A DNA stretch of 64,000 bases, taken from NCBI RefSeq assembly GCF_008065115.1, contig NZ_CP042913.1:780338-844337 (forward strand), written 5' to 3'. How positions within the stretch are numbered: the stretch's first letter is position 1; the number at the start of each line of letters is the position of its first letter. Below the pieces are notes generated by a model. That model worked only from the letters and a program-made list of their open reading frames with translations. It made no database searches and was not told the origin of the DNA. A program made the translations under genes and the position numbers. Below, in pieces: positions 19,191 to 60,261 of the stretch. This DNA comes from Bythopirellula goksoeyrii. Its GTDB lineage: Bacteria > Planctomycetota > Planctomycetia > Pirellulales > Lacipirellulaceae.

Positions 19191-20405
19191 CTACGAGGCC
19201 ACTCCGCTGGTCTCCTTCGTTGTCTCTTGCAATCGCTCCATATCGAGGTACTTGCGCGTGCCCCATTTGGTACCAGCGACGTGTCGCAGTCTTGCGGATA
19301 CCAGCATCAATGCGCTGTTGCCGTCCGGGAAGGCACCCACGACGCGCGTCCGCCGGCGGACTTCGCGCATCAATCGCTCCAAAGCGTTGTTCGTGCGAAT
19401 CCGCGTCCAATGCTCGCGAGGATAGGACATGTACCGCAACGTCTCGCCCACGCCCTCCTCGACCACCTTGGCTGCCTTGGTGAGCTTCATCGCTCGCAGC
19501 TTCTCCACAACGTCGCCCGCCTTCTTCTTGGCCGCCTCGCGGTCTTCCTGCGCGTGAATTGCCTTGAGCATCGCCATCACCTCCTTCATTCGATGACGAG
19601 GAACTTCCGAGCCGACGTTGCGATACCAGTGGACCACACACCGTTGCCAGTCTGCCTCCGGATAAAACTCGCCCAAGGCTTCTACCAACCCTAAACACTT
19701 GTCGCTGGTCACCAGGCGAACTCCCTTCAGGCCACGCTCCTTGAGATGCCGGAGGAACTTCCGCCAACTCTCGGTATCTTCCTTCGTCCCTTCGCAAACA
19801 CCCAGAACCTGCCGATAGCCGTCCTGGTCGACGCCCACGGCAACCAATACCGCCACGTTCTTCACCTCGCCGCCCCACGACCGTTTCAGCCAAATACCAT
19901 CCAGGGCCACGTAGGCAAAATCGCCCTCGATCGGCTGGTTTCGCCAGGCTTCGATCCGCTCGTAGAGCTGCTGATTCAGCTCGCTCACCGTGCTCGGAGA
20001 AACTCGTGTTCCCCACAACGCCTCGGTGATGTCCTCCACCCGGCGAACGCTCACCCCGGCGAGGTACATCTCCATTAGCGCCTCTTCGACCGACGACTCC
20101 CGTCGTCGGTATCGTTCGATAATCTGCGTCTCAAATGGCAGGCTTCGCAGCCTGGGGACCTTAAGCTTTACCTGGCCCGCCTTCGTCTGTAATCCTCGTT
20201 CGTAAGAACCAGCTCGTGTATCCACGCGGTCGGGGCTCCGCTCGTAACGCTTCGCTCCACAGAGTTGATCAGCTTCGGCCTCCAACAGTCCATTGAGCGT
20301 CTCCTCGACGCTCTTGCGAACCACCTCGTCGACGTGCCCTCGAATCTGAGCCTCGTCGATCTGAACCATGCTTCCGTTTTCAGTACTTCCTGTTAAACTC
20401 GCCAT
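19191..20405 (-). CDS. IS256 family transposase
   Basis: 404 residues from the ATG at 20405, which has AAGGAG about ten bases upstream (ATG at 20450 is in frame but lacks this). The mutator/IS256 layout is present: N-terminal DVVRKSVEETLNGLLEAEA-like helix, RTRAGSYERGL-type cysteine-poor linker region, then the DDE catalytic core with the first Asp in YVALDGIWLK, the second in LVTSDKCLGLVEA and Glu in the C-terminal NALERLMREVRRRTRVVGAF block. Full length and unbroken, so the element may still be active. The stop codon lies eight bases from the hairpin that hosts the introns. Confidence 0.93.
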   Translation of the reverse strand: MASLTGSTENGSMVQIDEAQIRGHVDEVVRKSVEETLNGLLEAEADQLCGAKRYERSPDRVDTRAGSYERGLQTKAGQVKLKVPRLRSLPFETQIIERYRRRESSVEEALMEMYLAGVSVRRVEDITEALWGTRVSPSTVSELNQQLYERIEAWRNQPIEGDFAYVALDGIWLKRSWGGEVKNVAVLVAVGVDQDGYRQVLGVCEGTKEDTESWRKFLRHLKERGLKGVRLVTSDKCLGLVEALGEFYPEADWQRCVVHWYRNVGSEVPRHRMKEVMAMLKAIHAQEDREAAKKKAGDVVEKLRAMKLTKAAKVVEEGVGETLRYMSYPREHWTRIRTNNALERLMREVRRRTRVVGAFPDGNSALMLVSARLRHVAGTKWGTRKYLDMERLQETTKETSGVAS

Positions 20406-20503
20406 CGTGGCAGTCTCCTTCGCTTGGGGGAATGAATCGTAACAATCCAATTCCTACCAAGCAGGGGCTGCCCAAACAATCTGCGCAATAATATAGGACG
20501 TTA

Positions 20504-27563: not shown

Positions 27564-29435
27564 CTAGGGTTGATTATCGCTTGGAGACACCACGTCGCCT
27601 TCAACGGCATAGGACTTTATGACCGTGTTGCCCTCTTCAAGAAAAAGATGCACATAGAAATCATTCGTTTGAATTGGATCGTCTAATTCAAGCACAATTT
27701 CGCCTCGGAAATTACCATCCGTCTTTTCCTGGGCGACGAGATCAGTCCCATTGAGCGAAACTCCTATACCAATTTTGGCTGGGCTGTCATTGGCAGCTGC
27801 GTTGCCCTCCGCACGTAGCCTAGAGAGGTTGATATCCTGCGGTACCTTTAGATGTTGGACAATTTCAAGCACGCCAGGGCTATTGGCATGCAGCCCGGCC
27901 GGGGATTGGACAATCTTCCTGGGTTCCTTGATGTCCGCAGTATGGTAAATGCTCATATCCCGCAGGTCTTCTTCAAAAAGCACTTTGCCGTCATCGTTGA
28001 CCTCAAGTTCCAACACTTTCTCTTGAGGCGGGACGACATCCGCTTCCACTTCAATCGACTCAACACCTGCTAACACCTCGCCGTTAGTTTTGGCCGTTCC
28101 ACCCATCGTGTAGACCACCTGAAAATTTGTCCCTGATAAACGATCACCAGGAATCACCAAATCCATCGTTCCTTGTGGGCCAAGTGTTGCGCAACCAATT
28201 TCACTTCCCACAGAATCTCGCACTGAAAGCGAGACCGCAGCATCGGTTTCAGGCGCAATGAAAGCGGGAGCATGGACTCGCAGTTCTGAAATTGGAAATG
28301 CGCTAGCAAACGAATAAGCAACCGAGGACTCCGCAGGCCCGACTTGGCGAGGGCGCAGTTCTACAGGGGTCGAATCCCATCTCAGATCGGCAAAACCTGT
28401 AATTGCAGTATCGTTGACAAATCGCAGTGTTCGATCTTGGGCGTAGTCTTCTTGGTAGGAGGCTGAAGTATCACTTGACGAAGAGAAAGCAAGCTCGATT
28501 ATGGGGGTCTCCCACGGAACAGTATCCCAAGAACTTTTATTGGGACCTGGGTCTAACTTGGCTTCCATCGAATATTGGAGAACACGAGCGAAGGTCTGCT
28601 TGAGGCTATCGGGGGCTTGTTTTTGCCAACCCCACCACGCGCCTGGTCGCCCAAACCAGGCGAAATAGGAAGTGGGGATATTGTACTTTCGACAGACTTC
28701 CCATTGCTCTCCGAAGCGACGGGGGATATAAGGCACTGACTGCTGGCCGCCTCCTGCCCAAATAATTTGAACGATAGGTTTCTGCATGACCGTGTAGCCA
28801 CGCATCGCGCGCTCCATGTCAGGTTGGTCGAGATGATACTCGTCCGCCATCCAACCATCTGATTTTAAGTTCGGCCAACCTGTTACTCCCGGTATCGACC
28901 CATGCGAACTAGGAGAGTACCACTGATAAATTGGCACGTCATGCTTCGCCTTGATCAACTCGTACAGTCGGTTCAGATGCCGATCACGACCATTCCAAAA
29001 GATGTGTTCTTCACCCAGAGTAATTGCATAGATTTCGCTACTGTCAACCTGGGTAAAAAAATCATCCACTACAGCTGCAAGCTTTTCGATTTCTGAATCG
29101 TCCGCATCATGACTAAGATGGTGGACAGCATAGAATTCCCCATCAGCGTTTTTGGCTCGTGGAACTAGGTCTACAATGACCCGCGTTCCATTGCGACGAG
29201 CTTTTTGCAAGCTATCGTTCCATTCGGAGATATCCTGCCCTTCGCTCACGACGGCTGGCACGATGAAGTAATCGAACGGCGTATCAGCTTGCAAAAAGTA
29301 TTGATTCCATCCGCAATACAATCCGGAGTCCTTGAAAGTCAAAGGAACACGAGGGCCGGGGATTTCTTCCGCACGACACGTAAGCGTGAAATTGATTGCC
29401 AAAAGAAGACCTAAAACCGCAAATCCGTTTTTCAT
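27564..29435 (-). CDS. secreted TIM-barrel glycosidase-like protein, unanchored paralogue
   Basis: 623 residues, signal peptide 1-22, start ATG at 29435 with GAGGTG upstream. The N-terminal half looks like an (alpha/beta)8 hydrolase: LYCGWNQYF, NGTRVIVDLVPRA, YAITLGEEHIFWNGRDRH (acidic pair after a beta strand, as in glycosidases), WMADEYHLDQPDMERAMRGY and IIWAGGG. The second half is beta-sandwich-like (ELRVHAPAF, GVSLNGTDLV). I cannot place it in a named glycoside hydrolase family. It aligns over nearly its whole length with residues about 190-780 of the next gene upstream, but lacks that protein's N-terminal domain, dockerin and PEP-CTERM tail, so it should be a soluble version. Confidence 0.6.
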   Translation of the reverse strand: MKNGFAVLGLLLAINFTLTCRAEEIPGPRVPLTFKDSGLYCGWNQYFLQADTPFDYFIVPAVVSEGQDISEWNDSLQKARRNGTRVIVDLVPRAKNADGEFYAVHHLSHDADDSEIEKLAAVVDDFFTQVDSSEIYAITLGEEHIFWNGRDRHLNRLYELIKAKHDVPIYQWYSPSSHGSIPGVTGWPNLKSDGWMADEYHLDQPDMERAMRGYTVMQKPIVQIIWAGGGQQSVPYIPRRFGEQWEVCRKYNIPTSYFAWFGRPGAWWGWQKQAPDSLKQTFARVLQYSMEAKLDPGPNKSSWDTVPWETPIIELAFSSSSDTSASYQEDYAQDRTLRFVNDTAITGFADLRWDSTPVELRPRQVGPAESSVAYSFASAFPISELRVHAPAFIAPETDAAVSLSVRDSVGSEIGCATLGPQGTMDLVIPGDRLSGTNFQVVYTMGGTAKTNGEVLAGVESIEVEADVVPPQEKVLELEVNDDGKVLFEEDLRDMSIYHTADIKEPRKIVQSPAGLHANSPGVLEIVQHLKVPQDINLSRLRAEGNAAANDSPAKIGIGVSLNGTDLVAQEKTDGNFRGEIVLELDDPIQTNDFYVHLFLEEGNTVIKSYAVEGDVVSPSDNQP

Positions 29436-29606
29436 AACACACCTCACTGTTTTCTGGCAGGAAGAAAGAAGAACTAGCAGATGGATAGTAAAATTGCCTC
29501 GTTTTAGAAGTATCTTTCCTGAAATATTGAGTCAAACATTGCGTGTAGTAAAGATACACAAAACTTGTCGAACCAACATCTAATAGGGCCAGCTTGTCGA
29601 CTCACT

Positions 29607-32195
29607 TCAATTGCTTCTCTTGCGATTGAATTGGATTAGGGTCGTCAAAGCAATACTCAGTAGGAGGGCCGATGTTGGCTCCGGAACGCTTGTCTGTGTC
29701 GCACTGAATGGGCTGACACCCATGCCGTAATTGGCCTGCCAGTCCCCCAAGCTCCCCACGGCAGGGTTGCGCTGCCAGACGAGGAAATCGTTTCCGTCCA
29801 CGTCGCCATCGCCGTCGAAATCACCGTCTATCCCTGGGCCAATTCCTTCCAGAGTATAGGACTCAATCAATCCATAGCTTCCATCAAGAAGCAAGTGAAC
29901 AAAGAAGGAGTCCGACTCGATTGACTGGCTCGTTAAATCGAGCAACAACTCACCATCAAATGTTCCGGACGACGTAACCTGGTCGATAATGTTTATCCCA
30001 TCCAAAGAAATGCCGATACCTATCGTGGCTTGGAAGGAAGGATTGTCTTGATCTGCTGCACCAGTCGCGCGCAATTCGGTGAGGGTGATGTCCTCGGGCG
30101 TGGCAAATTCCTGGATCACCTCGAGTTGGCCCGGATTCTGATTGGCGAACAGGCCAGCGTTGGAATAGCCAACTTTTCCGAGATTATTAAACTCCGCAGT
30201 ATGAAAGACGCTCATGCCACTCAAATCTTCCTCAAACGATACGAGGCCCCCAGCACCGATTTCCAGATCAATGGCTTTTTGGGTGGGTATCACGACATCA
30301 GCATCGACGTCAATTGAGTCCACACCTGCCAGAACATCACCCACAGTTAGCGAGGTGCCTGTCATGGTGTAGGCGACCTGGAATTCACGCCCTGGGAAGG
30401 AGCCACCTGGTACGGTCATGCTCATCGCACCCCCAGCGGTCATGGTGGTGCTCTGCAGAAGATTGCCATCCATGTCGAGCACTGACAGGGTCACCGCCCC
30501 GTCGGTACCAGGCGTGATGAAGCCGGGAGCGTCGATCCGCAATTCGGTCAAAGGAAAGGCACTGCTAAAATTGTAAGCAACCGAAGAGGATGCTGCCCCC
30601 GTTTCGCGAGGCCGGAGTTCCACGGGAGACGAGTCCCACCGCAAATCTGCAAATCCCGTGATGTCGGTTTGATTGATAAATCGCACTACCCTGTCAGAGA
30701 TATAGTCCTCGGTATAGAAAGGAGTTACGTCGCTCTGCGAGAGGAAAGCCAACTCAATGGTCGGGATTTCCCAGGGTACCGTGTCCCAGGAGGCCGAATC
30801 AGGTGCTGGAGCCGATGCTGCAGCAATCGCTGTATTCTTTACGAGATCAAATCTGGCTGCCGTTACAGAATCCACACCTGGATCCCAGCCATACAGACCA
30901 CCAACTCCTGACCATGTGAAATAACCTGCCGCGACATCATACTTCTGATGTACAGCAATCTGTTCGTCGAAACGTTCCTGAATGAATGGGATAGAAAAAC
31001 CATCTCCACCGGCCCACAGGATATTGGTGATCGGTTTTTGCTGAATCACATATGCACGTGTGTTCTGTTCCATATTAGGTTGATCCAGAATATATTCGTC
31101 TGAAACCCAGCCATCAGAATTCAAATTGTAGAAACCAGATACCCCTGGTGCTGTCCCAATGCTACTGGGGGTGTACCACTGAAAGATTGGTAGATCAGGG
31201 TGATTAATTTTGATTTTGTCATAGAGTTTATTGAGATGATCCACTCGCCCGTCCCAAAATATATGCTCCTCGCCCAGTGTAATTCCGTATAGTTCATTCT
31301 TGTCGACTTGGGCAAAGAATTCGTCAACAACTGCAGCCAACTTGTCTATATCGGAATCCGGCGAGCTCGGTGTGAGGTCGGTAATCCCAAAGAACCCCCC
31401 CGATCCATTGGAAGCCTGCGGGATAAGATCAGCAATGATTCGCTTACCTCCGGCACGGGCTTGCTGTAGATTATCATTCCACGCCGAGTGCCCTTGAGCG
31501 TCACCTTGAGTAGCAACTGCTTGCACCACATGATGGTCAAACGGAGTCTCAGGATTGACGAAATACCCATTCCAACCCCCGTACAAACCAGAACTTTGAA
31601 ACGTCAGCGGTTCACGAGCAGGAGGAATAACTGGAAGCGGGGTCAGGTCCGCGTAGAGATTCATCTGACTGATATCTACATGCTGCGATACATGCCCCAG
31701 TCCTTTTACAACCTCCACTCCGACATGAACGCTCGTAAGACCACTGAGGGTTGCATCCCCCGTAGCATCCAAGGCCAGAGGCACATCGACTACCACTTGC
31801 CCATTGTATTCTGCCCCAATGTATGTGGAATAATCAAACGATAGAGTGGTTGTAGGTTGCGCAAATCCCATACCGATTCGACCGTCCATAATCCAAGAAC
31901 TAAATCCAGAGCCAAGCGCTTCGAGACGGATATTCGACATCGAGAAACCCGCAGGAGCGGAGATTTCTCGGAACAAGTTGTAATGCCCGGTTCCACTCGT
32001 GTTTGGATGTTCAAAACCGACTTTGGTCGGATCCCCACCCTTCTCGAATACCAACGGTAGACCCGTGTCTGACGGAACCACCGTCCATGCGCTACCGCCA
32101 TTAGTGAAATCCAGCGATTCGATAAGTACCGCACTCGCGGAGCCTGATAAAAGGAACAGTATCACTGTAAATGCGAATTGGCATATTGCTCTCAT
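29607..32195 (-). CDS. multidomain surface glycosidase-like protein with dockerin and PEP-CTERM
   Basis: 862 residues with an ideal AAGGAG ribosome site. Order: signal peptide (1-22); a ~165-residue domain starting LDFTNGGSAW and ending VSQHVDISQMNLYADL, shared with three proteins at 46-49 kb; the TIM-barrel hydrolase-like module (about 190-540, YGITLGEEHIFWDGR, WVSDEYILDQPNMEQNTRAY, ILWAGGDGF); beta-sandwich modules; a dockerin-like EF-hand (GDFDGDGDVDGNDFLVWQRN); and a PEP-CTERM anchor (VPEPTSALLLSIALTTLI, NRKRSN). This is an exported, surface-sorted enzyme candidate. It heads the minus-strand run down to 20637 and is divergent from the oxidoreductase gene at 32588. Confidence 0.72.
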   Translation of the reverse strand: MRAICQFAFTVILFLLSGSASAVLIESLDFTNGGSAWTVVPSDTGLPLVFEKGGDPTKVGFEHPNTSGTGHYNLFREISAPAGFSMSNIRLEALGSGFSSWIMDGRIGMGFAQPTTTLSFDYSTYIGAEYNGQVVVDVPLALDATGDATLSGLTSVHVGVEVVKGLGHVSQHVDISQMNLYADLTPLPVIPPAREPLTFQSSGLYGGWNGYFVNPETPFDHHVVQAVATQGDAQGHSAWNDNLQQARAGGKRIIADLIPQASNGSGGFFGITDLTPSSPDSDIDKLAAVVDEFFAQVDKNELYGITLGEEHIFWDGRVDHLNKLYDKIKINHPDLPIFQWYTPSSIGTAPGVSGFYNLNSDGWVSDEYILDQPNMEQNTRAYVIQQKPITNILWAGGDGFSIPFIQERFDEQIAVHQKYDVAAGYFTWSGVGGLYGWDPGVDSVTAARFDLVKNTAIAAASAPAPDSASWDTVPWEIPTIELAFLSQSDVTPFYTEDYISDRVVRFINQTDITGFADLRWDSSPVELRPRETGAASSSVAYNFSSAFPLTELRIDAPGFITPGTDGAVTLSVLDMDGNLLQSTTMTAGGAMSMTVPGGSFPGREFQVAYTMTGTSLTVGDVLAGVDSIDVDADVVIPTQKAIDLEIGAGGLVSFEEDLSGMSVFHTAEFNNLGKVGYSNAGLFANQNPGQLEVIQEFATPEDITLTELRATGAADQDNPSFQATIGIGISLDGINIIDQVTSSGTFDGELLLDLTSQSIESDSFFVHLLLDGSYGLIESYTLEGIGPGIDGDFDGDGDVDGNDFLVWQRNPAVGSLGDWQANYGMGVSPFSATQTSVPEPTSALLLSIALTTLIQFNRKRSN

Positions 32196-38154: not shown

Positions 38155-39213
38155 TCAAGGGTTAGGGACGACCTCACCGCCGGCGAGTGTGCCCAAAGCT
38201 CGTACTATTCCCAGGGCGGTGTCCTCAGAAAGAAACCGAGAAGCTCCATCAGCCATGGCAAAATTTGCACCTCCGGGATGCCGGCTATAGAAACCTAAAT
38301 CGATGAAATGAGTTGCAAATTGGCCCGTTTCGTCGCGTAAATTGACAGGACAATTGGCAAGTCGCCACGAACAAACAGAATGGACCCAATTGTGTCCATG
38401 AAAATTTCGACCATATACGTCCTCTCCCAGCAGCATTGTATTGCTCATTCCATCGATGATAGTTGCTGCCCTACGTGGCTTGAGATAAGTATTTGGAAAT
38501 ATGATACCATCTCCATTTCGAAACGGATGATTGTGCCAGGGGTGGTCTTCCGTTAAGCCTGGGGAGGGTCCTTCTGTGCCGGGATTGTTGTAGGGCGCTT
38601 GCCACGGGCTCATCGACCCTGCGCATCCATGATAGTTGGTGATCCCTGCCATTGTTCCGTTCGACTGCCCCTTTCCTTTCATGTAGATCGTCGTGTCTCG
38701 GTAGACTCCAACCGAACTTCCTTCGTCACTAGGGCAAAGATACAGACTAATTGCAGTTCCGGTGTTTTCGTCGCCAGAGTTTTTTATCGTGCCGGGAACT
38801 AAATCAGGGATTTCGAATTCCAGATTACTGGGGCCCTCGAGATAACCGCCGACACCGTCGCCAATTCGTGCGGCATCGTAGAGAGGCGCCTGTTCAACAT
38901 AAGGCAAAATGAAAGCCAAGAAACTCCAATTCATCGAAGTTGCTTTGTAACCTCCCCCTGGAGGCGTAGTTCCATAACCTCCATAAACTGTCTTTGGAAA
39001 ATGGCCATTCGCTTCAAGATGTAAATGTAGTCCCAAGGCGATCTGTTTAAGATTATTCGAACAATGCGCGCGTCGACTCGCTTCGCGCGCAGCCTGGACC
39101 GCCGGCAGTAGCAAGCCAACCAAGACTCCGATAATGGCAATTACGACCAGAAGTTCTACGAGGGTGAAACCATGTAGGGGTCTAGAGAAGCGATACTTTG
39201 TTGGGATTCTCAT
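38155..39213 (-). CDS. DUF1559 pseudopilin-like protein
   Basis: 352 residues. The prepilin-type N-terminus ([37 protein letters not shown]) is followed by the DUF1559 domain, with SNTMLLGEDVYGR in the middle and the C-terminal HPGGANFAMADGASRFLSED motif. Its ATG overlaps the upstream lipoprotein gene's stop by four bases, so the two products are probably made together. Together with the two lipoprotein genes upstream it forms one of three DUF1559-lipoprotein modules in the window. Confidence 0.9.
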   Translation of the reverse strand: MRIPTKYRFSRPLHGFTLVELLVVIAIIGVLVGLLLPAVQAAREASRRAHCSNNLKQIALGLHLHLEANGHFPKTVYGGYGTTPPGGGYKATSMNWSFLAFILPYVEQAPLYDAARIGDGVGGYLEGPSNLEFEIPDLVPGTIKNSGDENTGTAISLYLCPSDEGSSVGVYRDTTIYMKGKGQSNGTMAGITNYHGCAGSMSPWQAPYNNPGTEGPSPGLTEDHPWHNHPFRNGDGIIFPNTYLKPRRAATIIDGMSNTMLLGEDVYGRNFHGHNWVHSVCSWRLANCPVNLRDETGQFATHFIDLGFYSRHPGGANFAMADGASRFLSEDTALGIVRALGTLAGGEVVPNP

Positions 39214-42050: not shown

Positions 42051-43787
42051 CTACGTAGGGTTCGGGTCGCCTGATACGACTGCTTTCCATGAATAGCGGA
42101 CCGCTTTCTGGGGATCGCGAATGGGTAAGAATAATCCTAATAGTCCCGCCATCAAGAAGGTGGACGTTGCTGCTATCGGCGTTATCAAAAACGGACTCAA
42201 GCCGCGATTATTCGCTAGATGTAGCTCCAAAGAGCTGAATTCTGTATCGCCAAGAAACCACAGCAATTCGGCGTGCCAAGCACAGCAAACCGCAAGTGCA
42301 ATTCCCAGAATTGTACTAAGTACTATTGCTCTTTGTCCGACGTGGGACAGAAACATGCCGCCAGCAAACATAGCGCCTAAAGGGCCTAATGCACAATTAA
42401 ATGTGCGAAAAGTAATACCAATGATGTTGTAACTTTCGGGAATGTAGAGCAGCGCCCAGCCTGCAAAAGTACAAAAGAACCCAATAATTAGAGTTAATAT
42501 CCGTGCTAACCGAAGATCGCCCCAGCGGTAATAAGGCAAGTCCAGACGTCTAAAAACATCGATTGTCAAAACCGTGGACACCGAGTTCACTCCACTGTCC
42601 AAACTCGACATAGCCACCGCGAAGAGCGCAGCGACTAGAAGCCCCGACATACCTACGGGAAGCCCGTTGGCAATAAAATATGGAAACACTTTATCTGCTA
42701 CGAGAGGATTACGTGGATCGACAACGCCCTCGACAATCTCGACTTGAAACCGTGGATCTGAGTAATACGCCAACAAAGCCATCCCGCAAATAGAAAGCAA
42801 GATGAAGGCTACACATTCACCCATGAAATTTACAATGTTGCCACGGGCAGCTGCTTTCACAGAAGGAGTTGTAAGATATCGCTGTACCGCAACCTGATCG
42901 CCAATAAAGGTACAGCTGTACCAAAACAACATGTTAAGCATCATGAATAGAATGGTATTTCGTTCCGTAATATCCCAACTCGCCAGGGGAGGGAGTGCGT
43001 GGCCCTCAACGGCAGAACTTGTCGTGATATTCCACCAATCTATAGGGCCCGTTCCCGTATCGAGCGCCACGACTAGTAGCGTGATAATCAAACCGGACAT
43101 GAGCACGACAAACTGGATTACGTCGGTCCAAATGACGGCCTTTATACCTCCCAGCATGGTGTAGATCGTCGCCGAAATTCCCACCGCAAGAAGAACCGTA
43201 AGTGTCCATTGTTCGAGGCTGGGATGCCATGCAAATTGCTGCTCTAAGCTCGGGTAGGTGATTTGCGCTACCGCGCTCGAAGCAGTCAGCACGATCGTGG
43301 CCATCCAAAACAGTCTCAGGATCAGCGTGAATAGCCCCACCCCCAGTAAGCGAGCAACGAGACCGAATCGCCATTCGAGATATTCATAAATACTCGTTAT
43401 ATTCAACCTCATAAAGAACGGAATCCACAAGCGATTGACGACCAAGAAAGCCAACGGCAACGCCAGCCAACCGAATATCAACGTCAATCCATATCGCAGC
43501 ACTTCGCCTGGCGCTGCTAAATAGGTGGTCGTCGACATGAGCGACGCGATTAGACTAAGGCCTACCGCGAACCATGGCATGCTGCGCCCAGCGACGAAAA
43601 AGTCTTCGCCCTCATGTTGTTGTCGAGAGAAATAAATACCCGCAGCAAGAGTGCCCACAAAGTAGACTAGCACGACGATGTAGTCGACCGATTGGAGACC
43701 CCGCTGGGAGATAGATGACAAAATCGAGAAAGGGACGCTATCCATGATTGGTAGAGCAAGAAGCAGAATAGCTGTAACCCAAACCAC
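42051..43787 (-). CDS. sodium:solute symporter (SSS) family transporter
   Basis: 578 residues, start GTG at 43787 with GGAGA just upstream. About 13-14 membrane helices. Family signatures: DYIVVLVYFVGTLAAGIYFS, VAGRSMPWFAVGLSLIASLM, GGIKAVIWTDVIQFVVLMSG and LFAVAMSSLDSGVNSVSTVL (sodium site region). Relatives import sugars, sialic acids and sugar acids with sodium. Between the GntR regulator and the catabolic genes, it is the probable uptake system of the pathway. Confidence 0.92.
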   Translation of the reverse strand: MVWVTAILLLALPIMDSVPFSILSSISQRGLQSVDYIVVLVYFVGTLAAGIYFSRQQHEGEDFFVAGRSMPWFAVGLSLIASLMSTTTYLAAPGEVLRYGLTLIFGWLALPLAFLVVNRLWIPFFMRLNITSIYEYLEWRFGLVARLLGVGLFTLILRLFWMATIVLTASSAVAQITYPSLEQQFAWHPSLEQWTLTVLLAVGISATIYTMLGGIKAVIWTDVIQFVVLMSGLIITLLVVALDTGTGPIDWWNITTSSAVEGHALPPLASWDITERNTILFMMLNMLFWYSCTFIGDQVAVQRYLTTPSVKAAARGNIVNFMGECVAFILLSICGMALLAYYSDPRFQVEIVEGVVDPRNPLVADKVFPYFIANGLPVGMSGLLVAALFAVAMSSLDSGVNSVSTVLTIDVFRRLDLPYYRWGDLRLARILTLIIGFFCTFAGWALLYIPESYNIIGITFRTFNCALGPLGAMFAGGMFLSHVGQRAIVLSTILGIALAVCCAWHAELLWFLGDTEFSSLELHLANNRGLSPFLITPIAATSTFLMAGLLGLFLPIRDPQKAVRYSWKAVVSGDPNPT

Positions 43788-43832: not shown

Positions 43833-44612
43833 TTAATCTACTGCTTCAGCAAGCTGGCTCTCCACGGGTTGATTGACTAAGGCATGGTGTCTTAAATAGC
43901 AATGAATATGCGTTGTGATAGCGCAACGTGAGCGTTCTACATCGCGAGCTCGGATCGCGGAGACCAATTCAAAGTGCTGCTTTGCTGTAGATTCTTGTTT
44001 TTTCCTGGCACTCTTACTACTCAGGTCATTTGATGACAAATTGCGGACAGCATGTGACTCGAAAAACCTCGCAAGCACTTTATTTAAGCCGGAAACCAGC
44101 GTCGAATGGGTCATCTCCAATAGCAGAGTGTGAAATTGGAGGTCCCACTGAATCTGCTTGGCGGTTTCCATATCACTTTTGACCGCTTCAGCAAACTTCG
44201 TGGCAATACTCTCTAACTTATCAATCTGAGCGGGCGTCGCATTCGCCACTACCAATTCGATTCCTCCTACCTCCAGTACGTAGCGCAGATCAATAAGCTC
44301 ACGAAAATCGTCCTCTGAACCAGCGAGTGAGGGGACGCTTTCTGAGATCAATCGAATCAGATCCGGCCGACGAGCAACAAGGCCTTTTCCCTGGCGTCCC
44401 TCTAAAATTCCCAGGGCGCGTAGACGACTTACAGCTTCACGTACGATAGTGCGCGACACATCAAATTCAGTCGCGACCTGAGCCTCCGTCATAAAAATAT
44501 CGCCATCGCGAAAAGGCTTTGCTTGGAGCTTTCGACGAATCTTACTCGCCAACTTGTCGGCTAGTGAGTCGTTGTCATTTTGTTTTACAAGGCTTTGCAT
44601 GATTGTAATCAT
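43833..44612 (-). CDS. GntR family transcriptional regulator (FadR subfamily, FCD domain)
   Basis: 259 residues. Winged helix at about 20-85 (GDIFMTEAQVATEFDVSRTI, VREAVSRLRALGILEGRQGK) and a C-terminal helical FCD effector domain, with metal/ligand His and Asp in QIQWDLQFHTLLLEMTHS and ITTHIHCYLRHH. FadR-type regulators sense sugar acids or organic acids and usually repress nearby catabolic genes and themselves. A matching palindrome lies about 30 bases before the start. ATG at 44600 is an equally possible start. Confidence 0.92.
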   Translation of the reverse strand: MITIMQSLVKQNDNDSLADKLASKIRRKLQAKPFRDGDIFMTEAQVATEFDVSRTIVREAVSRLRALGILEGRQGKGLVARRPDLIRLISESVPSLAGSEDDFRELIDLRYVLEVGGIELVVANATPAQIDKLESIATKFAEAVKSDMETAKQIQWDLQFHTLLLEMTHSTLVSGLNKVLARFFESHAVRNLSSNDLSSKSARKKQESTAKQHFELVSAIRARDVERSRCAITTHIHCYLRHHALVNQPVESQLAEAVD

Positions 44613-44768: not shown

Positions 44769-46256
44769 CTAATCAGAAAACCTCAATGAATAGAGATCAG
44801 CGTCCTTCATGGCAAATCGCAATCGAACGGCGAGACCGGCCACCCTGCTCAAATCGGATCCACTATCCCAGGTGACAACACGTTCGATGTCGTCACCGTA
44901 GTGTTCAGGACAATCGGCCAATGACAGACCTTCCACCGGTTGTCCCTCTGAATTCAGCACTTCAACCTGAATCGAACCAGCTGCAGAGGTCGCAAAATTC
45001 AATATCAGACGATTCCCCTCAAAGACAATCGGACGAGTTACGAACTCGCCCGGTTGATAGCCTGCGTGGACAGAGACTATTCCATCAACTCGCAAGACAC
45101 CTCGGCGGATGTGCACGGAGTCTGTGCGGTAATGTTCTACAAAGTACAAAGACATCTCTACTGAACCCGTGGGGACTAGCCCCGGTCCTACTTCTATAGC
45201 CCGTTCGTGCCAGTTCAGTGGATCATTCCCTGGGCGGAGGAACGCTTCACCAAAGCGTCTATCCCATCGAATTCCATCACGGCTGGACATAAACACGATG
45301 TCAGAAATACCAGTGAGAGGCCATTCGTCTCCTTTGCGGTGCTCAACGAATCTTTTGGGAAACATCAACAAAATATCGGGACGGCGGTAGTAGGGGGTCG
45401 CCGCATTCTTATAAAGATGCTCATTATCCGTGCCTTGATGATTCGTAACTTCGATGAACTTTGGCGCAGTGAAATGGCGGAAGTCCTTCGTTGCCGTCCT
45501 GCGGATTCGTCGGATCGGCATCTCAGAGTGTTCTTCGAGATAGGGAGTTGCACGCATCACTTCGGTGCCATCTTCAGCTTCAAATCCCCTGGTGTAGACA
45601 ACATACTGCTCCCGAGCGGCATCCCAAAACGCAATGCTATGAGTGTCAAATTCTCCCACCGCTGGCACTACCCGTTCCTTCTGCAGCAATCGCCAGTGCA
45701 AGCCATCTGGAGACACCAGGCCTTGAAGCCCTCGCTCGAAGGCGTAACCCGTTGCCTTATAAAGCTGATCAGCATGAGCCGTAGGGCTGTCATCCTTGAA
45801 GACACATAATACGGTTGGTCCACCTTCAGGTTGAGTGTGGTCTCCAACCCACACCAAGTTATTATCCGTAGAACCTTGATATTCGATCAATCCGAGGGAA
45901 GGCTTCGTCCAATGAATACCGTCTTCGCTTTCCGCATATCCCGTGTAATAAGGAGGAGAATTGAAATTAGCCCGATACCACATCCGATACAATGAGCCAT
46001 CGAGAATGACTACTGGGTCGTAGAGCGTGCTATCTTCCCACGGCATGTCGAGCTTAATCGCAATTTCAGCACGTCGTGGGCTATTAAGCTTCAAATCGAC
46101 ATTCTGAGTCTCGTCGATGATCTTGTCGTCAAGGAAAAGTTGCAGTTGAGTGCCGATCTCAATCGGAACGGACGCGGTTTGGTTCTGCGAATCTGCAACC
46201 GCATAGCAGCAGGAACTACCGCTCAATTGCAGAAGCAAACAGAACAACAATTTCAT
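44769..46256 (-). CDS. secreted five-bladed beta-propeller glycosidase-like protein
   Basis: 495 residues from ATG at 46256, which starts a signal peptide MKLLFCLLLQLSGSSCCYAV; longer in-frame starts up to 46349 look non-coding. The body shows repeated propeller-blade motifs of GH32/GH43-like proteins: DPVVILDGSLYRMWYRANFN, GYAESEDGIHWTKPSLGLIE, LVSPDGLHWRLL and MSSRDGIRWDRRFGEAFLRP. The last 100 residues form a beta-sandwich. The usual catalytic acids of named families cannot be assigned. A paralogue lies at 56845-58551. It follows three PEP-CTERM genes on the same strand. Confidence 0.72.
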   Translation of the reverse strand: MKLLFCLLLQLSGSSCCYAVADSQNQTASVPIEIGTQLQLFLDDKIIDETQNVDLKLNSPRRAEIAIKLDMPWEDSTLYDPVVILDGSLYRMWYRANFNSPPYYTGYAESEDGIHWTKPSLGLIEYQGSTDNNLVWVGDHTQPEGGPTVLCVFKDDSPTAHADQLYKATGYAFERGLQGLVSPDGLHWRLLQKERVVPAVGEFDTHSIAFWDAAREQYVVYTRGFEAEDGTEVMRATPYLEEHSEMPIRRIRRTATKDFRHFTAPKFIEVTNHQGTDNEHLYKNAATPYYRRPDILLMFPKRFVEHRKGDEWPLTGISDIVFMSSRDGIRWDRRFGEAFLRPGNDPLNWHERAIEVGPGLVPTGSVEMSLYFVEHYRTDSVHIRRGVLRVDGIVSVHAGYQPGEFVTRPIVFEGNRLILNFATSAAGSIQVEVLNSEGQPVEGLSLADCPEHYGDDIERVVTWDSGSDLSRVAGLAVRLRFAMKDADLYSLRFSD

Positions 46257-46374
46257 GTTCGACACCATAACAATACTCGAAATTTCTCTACAACCAACTA
46301 CCAGATCTCTCATCCACTTCGAACGCCACTGCCTTGAGGATAATTTCATCTCTTATTAGGTAAGGCTTAGATCT

Positions 46375-47214
46375 TTACTGAGAATTTCTGCGGTGAAACG
46401 CAATAGAATAGACTGTCATGAATGTAACCAGCACTAGACTATTGGGTTCAGGAACTGCTCCAAGATTGACAGCCAAACTGGAAGGGTAATTAGTTTGCCA
46501 CTCAGCCAGTGCAGTAGGATCCAGAGCGGGCGCTGTAAGGCCACGTTGCCAGTCCAGAAAATCCTGGCCGTCGACGCTAAGGTCGCCGTTGAGGTCTCCA
46601 GCAGGTATTGCCGTCAGATCGGCCGTGATTACGATTTGGCTGACATCAGCGTGCTGTGAGACATGGCCAAGCAGTTTGACCACTTCTACAGAGACCCAAA
46701 TACTAGGTGTAGGAGTAAATCCAGGTTCTGGAGGGGATCCAGTACCGATGGTCGTGTCCAAGAACAAGGGGAAGTCGACCACCACCGTGCCGTTATTCCC
46801 TGGATCCCCTGGAATCGTTGGATCTTTAAAGTTGTTGGCACTTGCTCCATACTTGTACTGCAAAGGGTTCAAATTCTCTTCAAGGCCAAAACCAACTCGA
46901 CCGTCCATAATCCAAGAACTGTAACCGGATCCTAATGCCTCCAGGCGAATGTTCGTCATCGACATGCCGGCTGGGGCGAACACCTGTTGGGTTAGGCTGT
47001 AATGTCCACTTCCGTCAGTATTCGGGTGTTCGAACCCAATCTTTGTCGGATCGCCATCCTTTTCAAATACCAAAGGGATCTCGGTTGTGTGCTCGGTGAT
47101 ATTCCAGGCACTACCGTTATTAGTAAAATCCAATGCCGCGATTTGCACGGCCAATGCTGAGCCTGACTCACTAGCTAACAACATCGTGCAAACAATAATC
47201 AAAAGATTTCTCAT
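46375..47214 (-). CDS. PEP-CTERM/dockerin protein with shared LDFTN-type domain
   Basis: 279 residues, GGAG eight bases before ATG 47214. Signal peptide (1-23), then the ~165-residue domain that begins AALDFTNNGSAW and contains PLVFEKDGDPTKIGFEHPNT, APAGMSMTNIRLEALGSGYS and SWIMDGRVGFGL, closing VSQHADVSQIVITADL. Then a dockerin-like repeat (DLNGDLSVDGQDFLDWQRGL) and PEP-CTERM tail (VPEPNSLVLVTFMTVYSI, HRRNSQ). No catalytic domain. It is probably a surface binding protein; the shared domain also fronts the 862-residue hydrolase-like protein at 29607-32195. Confidence 0.75.
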   Translation of the reverse strand: MRNLLIIVCTMLLASESGSALAVQIAALDFTNNGSAWNITEHTTEIPLVFEKDGDPTKIGFEHPNTDGSGHYSLTQQVFAPAGMSMTNIRLEALGSGYSSWIMDGRVGFGLEENLNPLQYKYGASANNFKDPTIPGDPGNNGTVVVDFPLFLDTTIGTGSPPEPGFTPTPSIWVSVEVVKLLGHVSQHADVSQIVITADLTAIPAGDLNGDLSVDGQDFLDWQRGLTAPALDPTALAEWQTNYPSSLAVNLGAVPEPNSLVLVTFMTVYSIAFHRRNSQ

Positions 47215-47328
47215 GTCTTTTCTCCAGGACAAGTGGTGGTTTAAATATGTAACAATACTCTGTCAGTACAGGCGACGCTTTCTCTGTTTACTTGATTATT
47301 CACTTGCATATCCTCACAACACCCCATT

Positions 47329-48240
47329 TCAACGACAGCATCGTGTCCCTATTAGCAATCCTGCCAGGGCCAAGATTGTGAGACTAGCAGGTTCAGGGAC
47401 CGAACCAACATTAGCAGTCAATGGTGTGCTATCACCGTAGTTGTCTTGCCAAGCCATCAACTCTGTTGGACTCAATGAAGTTGGCGATTGGCCACGTTGC
47501 CACAGAAGAAAATCATTACCATCGACATCTAGATCGCCGTCAAAGTCGCCGGGCGAATTGACGACTTCCGTCAAGTCCGCGTAGAGCTTTATCTGGCTAA
47601 TGTCTACCTGCTGCGAGACATGGGCAAGGCCTTTGAGAAGTTTCACGCCAACCCAAACGCTGGTCAAACCACTGAAATCAGCGTCGCCAGTGGCATCTAA
47701 ATAGTCTTCTCCCGGTATGCCGTTATTGACCATTGGGAAATCAACCACAACCGTTCCATTGTTCCCGTTGTAGTTGTTGTCACCAAGCACGTTGCCCCAG
47801 TTGTCAGCTGACCAAGCATAGGTATCAGGCAAGAAGTTAAATGAATTGTCTTCCACTTCAATCTCTTCGGGATACATTTGATCCGACAGCCCAAAGCCAA
47901 CATAGCTGTTCATGAGCCACGAACTGAATCCTGACCCTGCGGCCTCGACGACGATATTCGACATAGTGAATCCGGTGGGTGCAAATACCTCCTGCATCAG
48001 GTGATAGTTTCCTGTACCTTGCTCCTCAACCGGAGGAAAAGTGCTCTCATGAGCAAAACCAACCTTTGTCGGATCGCCATCCTTCTCGAAGACTAGAGGT
48101 AGCCCATTGTCAAGCTCTGTCACTGTCCAAGCACTACCTCCATTCGTAAAGTCTAGGGCAGCAACCTCTACAGCCAACAAGACCGCTTGACGCTCATTGG
48201 CTAATAGTATTATGCAGACAACATAGAAGAATTTCTTCAT
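47329..48240 (-). CDS. PEP-CTERM/dockerin protein with shared LDFTN-type domain
   Basis: 303 residues from ATG 48240 with GGGGA upstream. Signal peptide, then the same domain (AALDFTNGGSAWTVTELDNG, PLVFEKDGDPTKVGFAHEST, APTGFTMSNIVVEAAGSGFS, SWLMNSYVGFGLSD, VSQQVDISQIKLYADL). It carries an insert of about 30 residues in the middle compared with its relatives. A dockerin-like repeat (GDFDGDLDVDGNDFLLWQRG) and PEP-CTERM tail (VPEPASLTILALAGLLIG) follow. Second of three tandem paralogues at 46.4-49.1 kb. Confidence 0.75.
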   Translation of the reverse strand: MKKFFYVVCIILLANERQAVLLAVEVAALDFTNGGSAWTVTELDNGLPLVFEKDGDPTKVGFAHESTFPPVEEQGTGNYHLMQEVFAPTGFTMSNIVVEAAGSGFSSWLMNSYVGFGLSDQMYPEEIEVEDNSFNFLPDTYAWSADNWGNVLGDNNYNGNNGTVVVDFPMVNNGIPGEDYLDATGDADFSGLTSVWVGVKLLKGLAHVSQQVDISQIKLYADLTEVVNSPGDFDGDLDVDGNDFLLWQRGQSPTSLSPTELMAWQDNYGDSTPLTANVGSVPEPASLTILALAGLLIGTRCCR

Positions 48241-48528
48241 GAATTCATTCCCCAATAAACAGTGGGTCAAACACTTAGTAGAATTCAAACTTAACTCGTA
48301 TACATTCACCCTCTAGCCTGCTCGCATCACTTGTCACGCTTCGTGGATCATTGTCGAATCTCGCAGTCCAGCTCGTCTGACTCTGCTGGAGGAGGCCAAA
48401 GTCCCTCCCCCTGGTTCTGCCCCTATTTACCAGGAGTCGGGAATTGGTAAGCCTCTAAGCGATCTATTAATTCAACTTAGTGATCGAGTGCAGCCGCCGA
48501 AAGACACTCGACCACCAGTTGCTCTCCA

Positions 48529-49146
48529 CTAACGTCGACGCACCAAGGCGAATAATCCGCTGAAACCCAAAAGCACAAAGCTGGCTGGCTCTGGGATCGG
48601 ATTCAGATCAGCAAAAACCTGGATATTGCGCACATTATTTGCCTGCCATACACCAGCGAGACCCTTCACTATTTCAACATTGATAAAGACACTATCTACA
48701 CCGGTGTAATCTGGGTCACCGGATGCATCTAGTGATTTGGCCGCATCCACCACTACTCCATCACCAGAGACGCCTCCGCGGCCTGAGTAATCAGAGGCCA
48801 GAGCATACTCAGGCTCATCATGCAAACCGAGTCGACCATCCATTACCCACGAGCTAAATCCTGAAGCCTCGAACGTCACCATGATGTTCGACATCGTGAA
48901 GCCGGCTGGGGCAAAAACCTCCTGAGACAACCGATATTGCCCAGAGTTAGTCGTATCCTGGGCAATACCAACATTCGTTGGATCTCCATCCAATTCATAG
49001 ACGAGAGGTAGTCCGGGATCATCCGCGATGACAGTCCAGGCACTGCCGCTATCAGTAAAATCAAGTGCTGCGACCAATGCAGCGGAGGAAACACTTGGAG
49101 CCATGGCGATAGCCAGGGCCAAGAGAGTAAATAGCATTCGTTTCAT
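48529..49146 (-). CDS. PEP-CTERM protein with shared LDFTN-type domain, minimal form
   Basis: 205 residues with AAGGAAAG upstream of the ATG. It holds only the signal peptide (1-21), the shared domain (AALDFTDSGSAWTVIADDPG, PLVYELDGDPTNVGIAQDTT, APAGFTMSNIMVTFEASGFS, SWVMDGRLGLHD, NNVRNIQVFADL) and the PEP-CTERM tail (IPEPASFVLLGFSGLFALVR). No dockerin repeat is present. It is the most diverged of the four copies and defines the limits of the domain well, about residues 22-183. Confidence 0.78.
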   Translation of the reverse strand: MKRMLFTLLALAIAMAPSVSSAALVAALDFTDSGSAWTVIADDPGLPLVYELDGDPTNVGIAQDTTNSGQYRLSQEVFAPAGFTMSNIMVTFEASGFSSWVMDGRLGLHDEPEYALASDYSGRGGVSGDGVVVDAAKSLDASGDPDYTGVDSVFINVEIVKGLAGVWQANNVRNIQVFADLNPIPEPASFVLLGFSGLFALVRRR

Positions 49147-49961: not shown

Positions 49962-50939
49962 CTAGGGAATGGAGACAACGAGCCCATCGTCACGATTGGC
50001 CAGATTATAGAGAGTCTGAATGTCGGTATCGTCACTGAGAAAGTGGACGGATCCATCGCAAAAGGCAGCCAAGGCACCACTTGGATGTGCCGATTGAATT
50101 GGGGAATTCATTCCACAATTTCCTCCCACACTCAGCGCAGTGGCCGATTTTTCTCCCACGCTGTGCATAACCGTTGTCGCATTAAAAGTTCGTTCGGCTA
50201 CATCGGTATTTCCAAAACCCATGCTAAATCCGTGCTCACAGTCGGCCGTGCAGTAAACATCTTCTCCGATTTCGTCTTTGCACCAATCCGACTGCTCCAC
50301 AATGGACAAGGTGTTCGAAGTCCCATCCGTAATCTCAGCAATCGAGATATGCTCTGCGGCAACCAGGGTTCCCCCCTTAGAAACCCAACCTGGGTTGCCG
50401 TAGGGGTTGCTGCCATGATCAACTGCACTTTCGTGATTCCAGGCTCCAGAGACACCCGCATAACTGGGCAACATGCCTGCTTCGGGGCGGATTTGACTGA
50501 ACTTGATCACCGGGCTAGAAGGACAACGAATCACATCTAAGGGCACTCCCGCGAGCAATTGTCGGTTATACAGATTGCCACCGTTACCTACCCAACCAGT
50601 ATGTGGACTATGTTCACCCGTCTTGTCGAACTGCTCATAGAGATTGGATTGCTCAATGTACGCCAAGGCGATCACGAACCAGGAATGACCAAATCCTTGA
50701 AGCACACCTTTTTCCGGATTGGTGGCACTGGGAAATTCATTGAAAGATGAATGGTAGTTTTGCAGCCCGAGCTCAAGTTGCTTGAGGTGGTTTGTGCATT
50801 GCGACCGCCGGGCCGCCTCGCGGGCAGCCTGTATGGCGGGTAACAACAACGCGACCAGGACGCCGATAATCGCAATGACGACCAAGAGTTCAACTAGGGT
50901 AAAACCGCATTTTCTTGTTACTGGCTTGCATTTCGTCAT
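49962..50939 (-). CDS. DUF1559 pseudopilin-like protein
   Basis: 325 residues from ATG 50939 with GGAG upstream; the frame extends further but the prepilin signal fixes the start. [19 protein letters not shown] and [17 protein letters not shown] open it; NTLSIVEQSDWC and HPSGALAAFCDGSVHFLSDD are DUF1559 hallmarks. The intervening cysteines (WCKDEIGEDVYCTADCEHGF) are more numerous than in the neighbours and might form disulfides. It precedes the lipoprotein gene and is divergent from the oxidoreductase gene at 51290. Confidence 0.9.
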   Translation of the reverse strand: MTKCKPVTRKCGFTLVELLVVIAIIGVLVALLLPAIQAAREAARRSQCTNHLKQLELGLQNYHSSFNEFPSATNPEKGVLQGFGHSWFVIALAYIEQSNLYEQFDKTGEHSPHTGWVGNGGNLYNRQLLAGVPLDVIRCPSSPVIKFSQIRPEAGMLPSYAGVSGAWNHESAVDHGSNPYGNPGWVSKGGTLVAAEHISIAEITDGTSNTLSIVEQSDWCKDEIGEDVYCTADCEHGFSMGFGNTDVAERTFNATTVMHSVGEKSATALSVGGNCGMNSPIQSAHPSGALAAFCDGSVHFLSDDTDIQTLYNLANRDDGLVVSIP

Positions 50940-51289
50940 AACACGAACTCCAAGTAACCCACAGATAAGATGAACTACCGCGTAGTCTCGGTGTGAATAG
51001 GTTTGCCTGACAGAGCCAATCATTGATCGCTTCAAATCGGGCAAATACATAACAAGTCGGAATGGCGTTCTCACTGCGACACAACTCCCCATGCATGAGG
51101 CTAGTGGGACTAAGCAAAGTGATTCAAGGCCGCCACATTAAATCCGATTATACTACTATCTTTCTACAGTAATGCACTTTAGAATAGTAGTCAAGCTTTG
51201 ATCCTACAAATTGATCGCAATTGACTCAAAAAAGAATAATTCAGTATTTCACCGCTTGATACATGAAGTCTGGGACGAGGAGGACGAGT
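50940..51289. promoter_or_regulatory. divergent promoter region
   Basis: 350 bases between the DUF1559 gene (minus) and the oxidoreductase gene (plus). GATTATACTACTAT at 51146-51159 gives a minus-strand TATAAT; its relatives lie before two other minus-strand genes. No coding sequence is supported. Confidence 0.35.
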
Positions 51290-59135: not shown

Positions 59136-60113
59136 TTAGAGACCATCAGTAGCAAAGCCGCCATCAGCACGATCTGCCATGTTTTGGAAAATGGTGAGAT
59201 CGATCGTTTCAGAGATAAAATGCGCACTGCCGTCAGCCATTGTCACATGAACTCCTCCTGGGTGGGCACTTTTCAAGGCAGCCCGCGTCGTCGTATTTCC
59301 CAGAGGCGGTCTACATCCTACACAGGGCCAATACCAAGCAGTGTTTGGCAGATGGGCGACCGTTCGCACGGAGTAGGTCGCGGTATCGCTACCATTATGA
59401 ATCTTTTCTTTAAAGAAGTGCCCCATATTCCAAACGGTATCGTTGTCCTGTAAACCCCCGTCATCAAATTGCTGCCCGGGCGCCAAATCCGAATATTCTC
59501 CAACTATCAATGTGTGCGAGCTACCGTCCTCGATATCATTGAATCCTGTCTTGCTATCTTGGTAGAGTATTCCTTCTCCCGACGGGAAACCAATACGATC
59601 AGAGCCAGCTATGCCAACATATTCCAGAATGCCAATTTCATTAGAGTCATACCCGCTCCCTGGGGCATAGTTATAAATTGAGGAATGACCCGAGGAAGGG
59701 CAGCGGTATATCTGCAGCTCTTGCTTAAGGGCAAAAATATGATCGGGGGGGCCTCGTAGAGTTGGCCAAGAATAGCCAGGCTCTGACACGTCAACTAGAG
59801 TATAGAGATTGCTCTGCTCCAAGTACGGCAAAATCAATGTCGCCCATGGATAGCCTGAGAACGGAAAGGCGATCTCCAATTCTGGAGGATCCCAGGTCCC
59901 AGGAGGAAACACTTGGTTTGTCGACACATAGTTCTGAAGCCCCAGGCCCATCTGCTTTACATGGTTGAGGCATGTAGAACGTCGTGCCGATTCTCGCGCC
60001 GCCTGGATTGCTGGCAGCAATAGCGCAACGAGTACGCCAATGATGGCAATCACCACTAAGAGTTCAACCAACGTAAACGCTCGAAACTGATTAGTCTTGC
60101 GGATGAGTTTCAT
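59136..60113 (-). CDS. DUF1559 pseudopilin-like protein
   Basis: 325 residues from ATG 60113, with GGGAAG upstream. Prepilin-type start ([37 protein letters not shown]), then DUF1559 motifs SHTLIVGEYSDLAPGQQFDD, NTAWYWPCVGCRPPLGNTTT and HPGGVHVTMADGSAHFISET. A WYWPCVGC segment with two cysteines is distinctive. The gene is separated from the SGNH hydrolase gene upstream by about 150 bases that contain a -10-like motif at 60153. Confidence 0.9.
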   Translation of the reverse strand: MKLIRKTNQFRAFTLVELLVVIAIIGVLVALLLPAIQAARESARRSTCLNHVKQMGLGLQNYVSTNQVFPPGTWDPPELEIAFPFSGYPWATLILPYLEQSNLYTLVDVSEPGYSWPTLRGPPDHIFALKQELQIYRCPSSGHSSIYNYAPGSGYDSNEIGILEYVGIAGSDRIGFPSGEGILYQDSKTGFNDIEDGSSHTLIVGEYSDLAPGQQFDDGGLQDNDTVWNMGHFFKEKIHNGSDTATYSVRTVAHLPNTAWYWPCVGCRPPLGNTTTRAALKSAHPGGVHVTMADGSAHFISETIDLTIFQNMADRADGGFATDGL

Positions 60114-60261
60114 AGACTTCCCTTTTTCGAATAGCATACGAACCCCACGGAAGATTGTACTATAATGATATTATCTTAATGCTTAGTTTTCGGCAAGTCA
60201 AGCAATTTCCTGGTATTATATTACCCCGTAATGTCTCTCTGAAATCGGGCGATTTCCACAT

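Follow-up and report, generated by a model that had tools for sequence, protein, structure and literature searches.

It is not settled by what means planctomycetes capture polysaccharides and take them up, and a domain encoded in Bythopirellula goksoeyrii may bear on the question. The window analysed here, 64,000 nucleotides of contig NZ_CP042913.1 (positions 780,338 to 844,337), lies in a 6.47-Mb single-contig genome. One domain is common to four proteins encoded in it. Three are the products of tandem genes (46375-47232, 47329-48309, and 48529-49146) and the fourth is an 862-residue protein (29607-32195) that carries the domain at its N-terminal front; all four open reading frames (ORFs) are on the minus strand. 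What is this domain, and what might it do for the cell? Our reading, to which we give a probability of roughly 0.58, is that it is a novel surface glycan-binding domain resembling a carbohydrate-binding module (CBM), as judged from its modelled fold, and that its family lies outside the libraries searched. It looks like a new family of a known type, lineage-restricted and CBM-like, an ordinary kind of sugar-binding module.

Polysaccharide uptake by pilus-like "fishing rods" is put forward as a hypothesis in the available portion of a review on planctomycetes (PMC12078418). The excerpted text of a comparative study states that clusters of carbohydrate-active enzymes in the phylum are, to its authors' knowledge, not functionally characterised (PMC11131199).

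One domain in four proteins

An earlier note on this DNA, made from the sequence alone, proposed that the four ORFs share a domain of about 165 residues. The sharing is confirmed by alignment and by leave-one-out profiles. Pairwise identity among the four copies is 46-61%, and 53 columns of their alignment are invariant. A profile of any three copies recovers the copy left out at E-values between 7.5e-51 and 4.1e-66, while the best of 4000 shuffled sequences (1000 per copy) reaches 0.085. Six-frame translation of the window gives 860 segments of 40 or more residues, and of these the domain profile scores the four copies only (next E 1.3). The hidden Markov model search suggested in the earlier note likewise finds, at E ≤ 1 in the whole genome, exactly these four. 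Searching the genome with the shortest of the proteins (205 residues, 48529-49146) alone gives 17 rows, five of which are the four copies; the remaining twelve have E 0.0037 or worse, many of them on the tail. A 70% identical DNA repeat of 196 bases is still visible between the copy of the 862-residue protein and that of 46375-47232.

The proposed size fits two copies, of 163 residues (48592-49080, in the 205-residue protein) and 167 residues (31632-32132, in the 862-residue protein). In the four-copy alignment, the copies at 46603-47151 (183 residues) and 47560-48174 (205 residues) are longer because of loop insertions. The motifs quoted in the earlier note, such as APAGxxMSNI, hold as a consensus but not literally in every copy: the 862-residue protein has EKGGDPT, 47329-48309 has APTG and MNSYVG, and 46375-47232 has MTNI. 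Glycines and hydrophobics account for many of the invariant residues. Two tryptophans (15 and 78 of the domain in the 205-residue protein) and several polar residues are also invariant. The copy in the 205-residue protein has a further tryptophan at position 145; that in the 862-residue protein has tryptophan only at 16 and 80.

By eye, the N-terminus of every carrier is hydrophobic. The minimal carrier of 205 residues consists of a signal peptide (by eye), the domain, and a PEP-CTERM tail. The carriers of 326 residues (47329-48309) and 285 residues (46375-47232) have a dockerin-like stretch between the domain and the tail, which is PEP-CTERM-like in the former and weakly so in the latter. For both, the ORF caller probably sets the start upstream of the true one, as their signal peptides, judged by eye, begin at Met24 (about 48240) and Met7 (about 47214), respectively. 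The tail of the minimal carrier scores 20.8 bits with the Pfam PEP-CTERM model (cut-off 20.7). With TIGR02595 it scores 18.2 bits in the protein scan, where the cut-off is 16, and 22.6 in the genome scan. For the 862- and 326-residue proteins the protein-scan scores fall under the cut-off (15.7, just under, and 14.5) and the genome-scan scores pass it (22.1 and 18.6). The tail of the 285-residue carrier scores 13.2 bits in the protein scan, under the cut-off, and is not among the genome-scan matches, for which 150 of 374 candidates were scored. Thus the cut-off is passed by three of the four carriers in the genome scan and by one in the protein scan. Export and anchoring of the carriers are proposed on these motifs. 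Three genome matches exceed the cut-off of the exosortase model PF09721. PEP-CTERM matches in the genome number at least 148 at E ≤ 0.1 among the 150 of 374 candidates scored; since they are so many, the tail alone is ordinary here and is no pointer to feeding.

The earlier note placed the domain in three contexts: alone with PEP-CTERM, with a dockerin plus PEP-CTERM, and with a putative catalytic module. The first and third stand, and the 862-residue protein adds to the third a dockerin-like stretch and a PEP-CTERM tail of its own. The label "dockerin" does not hold. Three carriers have a stretch resembling GDxxGDxxVDGxDFLxWQR before the tail, but the type I dockerin model PF00404 (Dockerin_1) matches one of the three over 19 residues with 13.7 bits against a cut-off of 22.9, and leaves the other two unmatched. 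Cohesin and dockerin proteins of other planctomycetes are placed, in the part of the source available, in a proposed peptide-degrading complex (PMC6461901).

Predicted fold

AlphaFold2, run on the four domain sequences, gives a beta-sandwich, the fold that the earlier note expected (mean predicted local distance difference test score, pLDDT, 68.4; predicted template-modelling score, pTM, 0.66). Residues 76-79 and 90-117 of this first model have pLDDT below 50. In a Foldseek search of the PDB it finds only two chains at E ≤ 0.001, and both are TmCBM61, the galactan-binding module of Thermotoga maritima (1.6e-4 and 4.2e-4). VIA-align also ranks TmCBM61 first (Z 9.5; root-mean-square deviation, rmsd, 3.2; 129 residues aligned). 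This lead is narrow, because a meprin MAM domain, an alginate-binding and a GH115-appended domain, cleaved-adhesin and ephrin-receptor domains, CBM4, CBM15, and two phage proteins follow at Z 7.9-8.9. The CBMs below TmCBM61 in this list are alginate-binding 8zqf, CBM4-2, CBM15, CBM36, and hyaluronan-binding 4d0q.

A second model, led by the copy of the 862-residue protein together with its putative catalytic module, covers 444 residues (pLDDT 60.0, pTM 0.47). Here TmCBM61 is the best Foldseek match of one-domain length (5.2e-5, rank 8). The seven higher-ranked rows span 408-578 columns with rmsd 19-25; six are glycoside hydrolases (a GH10 xylanase at 5.1e-7, beta-glucuronidases, and a GH51 arabinofuranosidase) and one is a phage spike. 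In VIA-align, TmCBM61 has Z 10.8 (rmsd 3.1, 131 residues aligned) and belongs to a tied top group. Note that the two models are not independent evidence because the same four domain sequences were used for both. The viral structure library gives no match at E ≤ 0.001.

The suggestion of the earlier note that the domain is a carbohydrate-binding module is therefore upheld in part: the fold supports it and the best-ranked solved structure is a CBM, but the same fold is common to protein-binding domains (MAM, ephrin-receptor, and cleaved adhesin).

The putative enzyme and its paralogue

The 862-residue protein consists of the domain, a barrel-like module, a middle part, a C-terminal beta-rich part, the dockerin-like stretch, and the tail. 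In the putative catalytic module (30801-31628) strands and helices alternate in the model, and Glu309, Glu310, Asp361, and Asp366 (numbering of the 862-residue protein) are invariant in six aligned sequences. The description "hydrolase-like" in the earlier note is plausible on this low-confidence barrel-like model, though no Pfam family supports it. PDB sequence searches with the module and with the C-terminal part return chance-level rows only. Among the 50 VIA-align rows listed for the second model, only two fall on the module, and both are endo-beta-1,4-galactanases (6gpa: Z 9.2, rmsd 5.3, 182 residues aligned; 2gft: Z 8.9, rmsd 4.3, 184 residues aligned). A GH53 partner was considered and rejected: PF07745 has no match in the protein at E ≤ 10 and none in the genome, while the same genome search is positive in Thermotoga maritima, Bacillus subtilis, and Bacteroides ihuae. 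The module is likely, as modelled, to be a glycoside hydrolase with a TIM barrel and to represent a new family.

The C-terminal beta-rich part (29841-30290) may have the fold of the domain as a distant copy. hhalign gives P 0.0037 (probability 9%) for the domain against it, and P 0.0044 (probability 7.8%) with a five-row alignment, a score that none of 100 column shuffles reaches; the middle part gives P 0.18. These values are no more than suggestive of a distant copy of the domain at the C-terminal part of this enzyme family.

A paralogue of 627 residues is encoded next to the putative enzyme (27564-29447, minus strand). It is 52% identical over 597 residues and lacks the N-terminal domain, the dockerin-like stretch, and the PEP-CTERM tail; the domain profile gives E 4.0 only. 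By their sequences, the two proteins would form a tethered and untethered pair, the one such pair here. Four more relatives of the enzyme are found with a two-row profile among 396 genomes of the same order (genomes G710, G395, G470, and G747; E 6.9e-18 to 4.8e-8). A search with the 627-residue paralogue alone finds its own genome only, among 294. A match in a further genome, G041 (20.3 bits), reads like a non-coding frame and was dropped. One of the four relatives (L034) has, by eye, a pair of dockerin-like repeats and a tail of PEP type at its end.

Occurrence in other genomes

As the earlier note held, the domain has no named match. Scans of the whole proteins and of the cut-out domains give no Pfam or NCBIfam match over its cut-off on the domain, the best PHROG match has E 0.54, and PDB sequence searches with the domain profile and two single copies give chance-level rows only. 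No convincing relative was found in samples of 43 genomes of the family, 392 of the phylum, 396 of the order, and 397 of the class; these samples include the genome studied and overlap one another. In genome contigs (84,980 species according to the tool description), two pattern scans returned 124 and 198 stretches, none of them confirmed, and of 58 stretches in viral contigs none was confirmed as a relative; the scans require near-exact stretches of 8-9 residues, and distant relatives could escape them. A tblastn search of plasmids with the enzyme's copy alone gave no match.

Outside its own genome the profile has four partial matches at E ≤ 0.01, in G087 (0.0022), G277 (0.0066), G026 (0.0055), and G956 (0.0073). 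They align over 53-112 profile positions, all score below 20 bits, and their E-values are per genome; about four such matches are expected by chance in each search of some 400 genomes, and two, one, and one are seen. The match in G956 is by eye a DJ-1/PfpI-like protein, and those in G087, G277, and G026 are longer exported proteins of other architecture. A search limited to the four loci gives E 4e-5 to 3.5e-4, but since these loci had been picked for matching the profile, the values add no evidence. The loci in G087 or G026 may still be remote kin. At the sensitivity reached, and as far as sequence comparison goes, the domain is an orphan multiplied within one lineage. In a search of the open-access literature on PEP-CTERM, CBM61, and planctomycete polysaccharide and dockerin topics, no title or abstract opening among those listed describes it.

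Genomic neighbourhood

The third domain gene is followed, 25 bp downstream, by one for a putative glycosidase-like propeller (by eye) of 526 residues (44769-46349, minus strand). It has no Pfam family and weak PDB matches to glycosidases (E 0.16-0.98). A similar gene (24%, E 2e-17) follows that of the enzyme relative in G710. Farther downstream of the tandem genes, on the same strand, are a GntR/FCD regulator (43833-44612) and a sodium:solute symporter (42051-43787). Gfo/Idh/MocA oxidoreductases, 3-keto-disaccharide hydrolases, a DHDPS-family protein, an enolase-superfamily protein, and a 2-hydroxyacid dehydrogenase are also encoded around them. The neighbourhood is a carbohydrate-use setting and is not diagnostic of the substrate. 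The gene content further includes PSCyt1/DUF1549/DUF1553, DUF1501, DUF1559, and PEP-CTERM proteins, a set that would be expected of a planctomycete.

A consensus scan between 43700 and 49600 gives 13 terminator-like sites, several of them inside the domain genes, against 5.3 expected from shuffles (standard deviation 2.3); for promoter-like sites the count is 5, where 6.8 are expected. These counts are not used to argue for an operon. Two ORFs for group II intron reverse transcriptase/maturases (15604-17082 and 17606-19084), of equal length and with identical Pfam scores, form a direct repeat with a spacing of about 2002 bp and are followed by a Mutator-type transposase (19191-20450); this mobile-element edge stands beside the carbohydrate cluster. 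Genes at 38155-39213, 49962-51092, and 59136-60137 encode three DUF1559 (SBP_bac_10) proteins whose N-termini have methylation motifs of the prepilin type. These proteins are possibly of the pilin-like kind that the accessible text of the review discusses for planctomycete polysaccharide uptake (PMC12078418).

Possible roles of the domain

As a glycan binder, the domain would be a non-catalytic module of jelly-roll type. Exported carriers with PEP-CTERM-type tails would hold polysaccharide at the cell surface, the three tandem proteins serving as free-standing binders beside the propeller, the GntR regulator, and the symporter. In the 862-residue protein the fused domain would keep the catalytic module on its substrate. 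Binding, display, and coupling to uptake are what we infer from the modelled fold and its match to TmCBM61, from modular reuse in four proteins, from the presence of the domain in the tailed and not the untailed enzyme paralogue, from the exosortase of the genome, from neighbours that look like sugar catabolism, and from the propeller resembling a gene beside an enzyme relative elsewhere. The ligand is not predictable, and galactan-like glycans are a lead only.

Several points weigh against glycan binding, which is itself a prediction from a model. The first model is of middling confidence and is built on four sequences from one genome, and pLDDT is below 50 around the invariant Trp78 of the copy in the 205-residue protein. 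In the second model, protein-binding folds tie with TmCBM61 (gingipain adhesin Z 11.1, meprin MAM 10.7, and ephrin receptors up to 10.3). None of the four enzyme relatives carries the domain (in their loci, which reach about 1.5 kb beyond the matches, the best E-value of the profile is no lower than 4). At the sequence level, SpaA_2 (E 0.12) and Glyco_hydro_2_N (E 0.18) match one copy each, at chance level. Finally, two of the three ligand tryptophans of TmCBM61 are without a counterpart in the enzyme's copy.

What else could a domain of this fold do on such proteins? It may serve the cell's own matrix or adhesion rather than nutrient capture, with the PEP-CTERM proteins coating the cell or holding its exopolysaccharide or protein partners. 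The fold, which also covers cleaved adhesin and MAM domains, is compatible with this, and so is the abundance of PEP-CTERM tails in the genome. In Haft et al. 2006 (PMC1569441), supplying a protein component of exopolysaccharide is also regarded as a likely function of many PEP-CTERM proteins. A copy fused to a putative enzyme module, however, and tandem genes directly upstream of the propeller, the regulator, and the symporter fit such a role poorly, and we regard it as unlikely, though as a serious alternative. We think it improbable that the domain is only a spacer or stability element of exported proteins with no ligand. The many invariant glycines and hydrophobics would suit a spacer, but the 205-residue protein is almost only domain, signal, and tail, which makes a purely spacing role unlikely, and two tryptophans that lie beside or between strands are invariant, as are several polar residues.

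A closer identity would be that of a true, diverged CBM61 binding beta-1,4-galactan and working with a galactanase-like enzyme. TmCBM61 heads the one-domain fold matches of both models, and the only two of the 50 VIA-align rows on the enzyme module are the galactanases. In TmCBM61, galactan is bound along a contiguous set of three tryptophans that includes Trp123 and Trp154 (PMC12309604). Trp145 of the domain in the 205-residue protein is near the position of Trp154. The enzyme's copy, with tryptophan at 16 and 80 only, fares differently in a comparison made from alignment lengths rather than residue by residue: if Trp80 were placed at Trp123, the alignment could reach no more than 80+42=122 residues, against the 131 found, so that two tryptophans, those at Trp123 and Trp154, are unmatched. 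It follows that neither membership of CBM61 nor a galactan ligand is implied. Moreover, PF07745 matches neither the enzyme nor the genome, and the barrel fold is common and its rmsd large. This identity thus seems very doubtful. For a new CBM-like family, the invariant tryptophans are candidates for a different binding site; in the model of the 205-residue protein's copy, Trp15 stands just before a strand and Trp78 between two strands. The 205-residue protein, being nearly all domain, is an easy test object, and the tethered and untethered enzymes would reveal what the domain contributes.

Comparison with known systems

By its model, the domain is like TmCBM61 (PDB 2xom/2xon) in size and in a jelly-roll superposition over nearly the whole domain; one of its four copies is also joined to a putative enzyme. 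It differs in sequence, with 11-17% identity in the VIA-align alignments and no sequence-profile match (a profile search and two phmmer searches of the PDB sequences, up to E 10, do not list 2xom or 2xon), and in its partner enzyme, which its sequence does not place in GH53. Cleaved adhesin (gingipain K1/K3) and MAM are adhesion or protein-binding domains. They have the same general beta-sandwich and tie with TmCBM61 in Z on the second model, but no Pfam match to either is listed on the domain (limit E 10, with filters that drop most matches above 0.1). The carriers resemble PEP-CTERM/exosortase surface proteins in their signal peptides (by eye), in a PEP-CTERM-type tail on all four, and in the exosortase of the genome, and differ in that the tail of 46375-47232 remains under the cut-off.

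Another comparison is with Bacteroidota, whose polysaccharide utilisation loci have free-standing, surface-displayed, CBM-like glycan-binding proteins near a glycosidase-like gene and a transporter. By analogy, the tandem carriers may be similar, as they are free-standing, CBM-like, and near a glycosidase-like gene and a transporter. They differ from the Bacteroidota proteins in that the genes of the window scanned with Pfam include no SusC or SusD, and in their display, which is proposed to be by exosortase and not as a lipoprotein. The fullest form of our reading is tentative: a new lineage-confined CBM family would act as exosortase-displayed glycan receptors, both free-standing and in a surface-tethered enzyme whose paralogue is untethered, with an undescribed glycoside hydrolase family as its partner and as a whole a counterpart of SusD and the surface glycan-binding proteins. 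If true, it would give a SusD-like counterpart in a phylum whose capture of polysaccharides is little understood.

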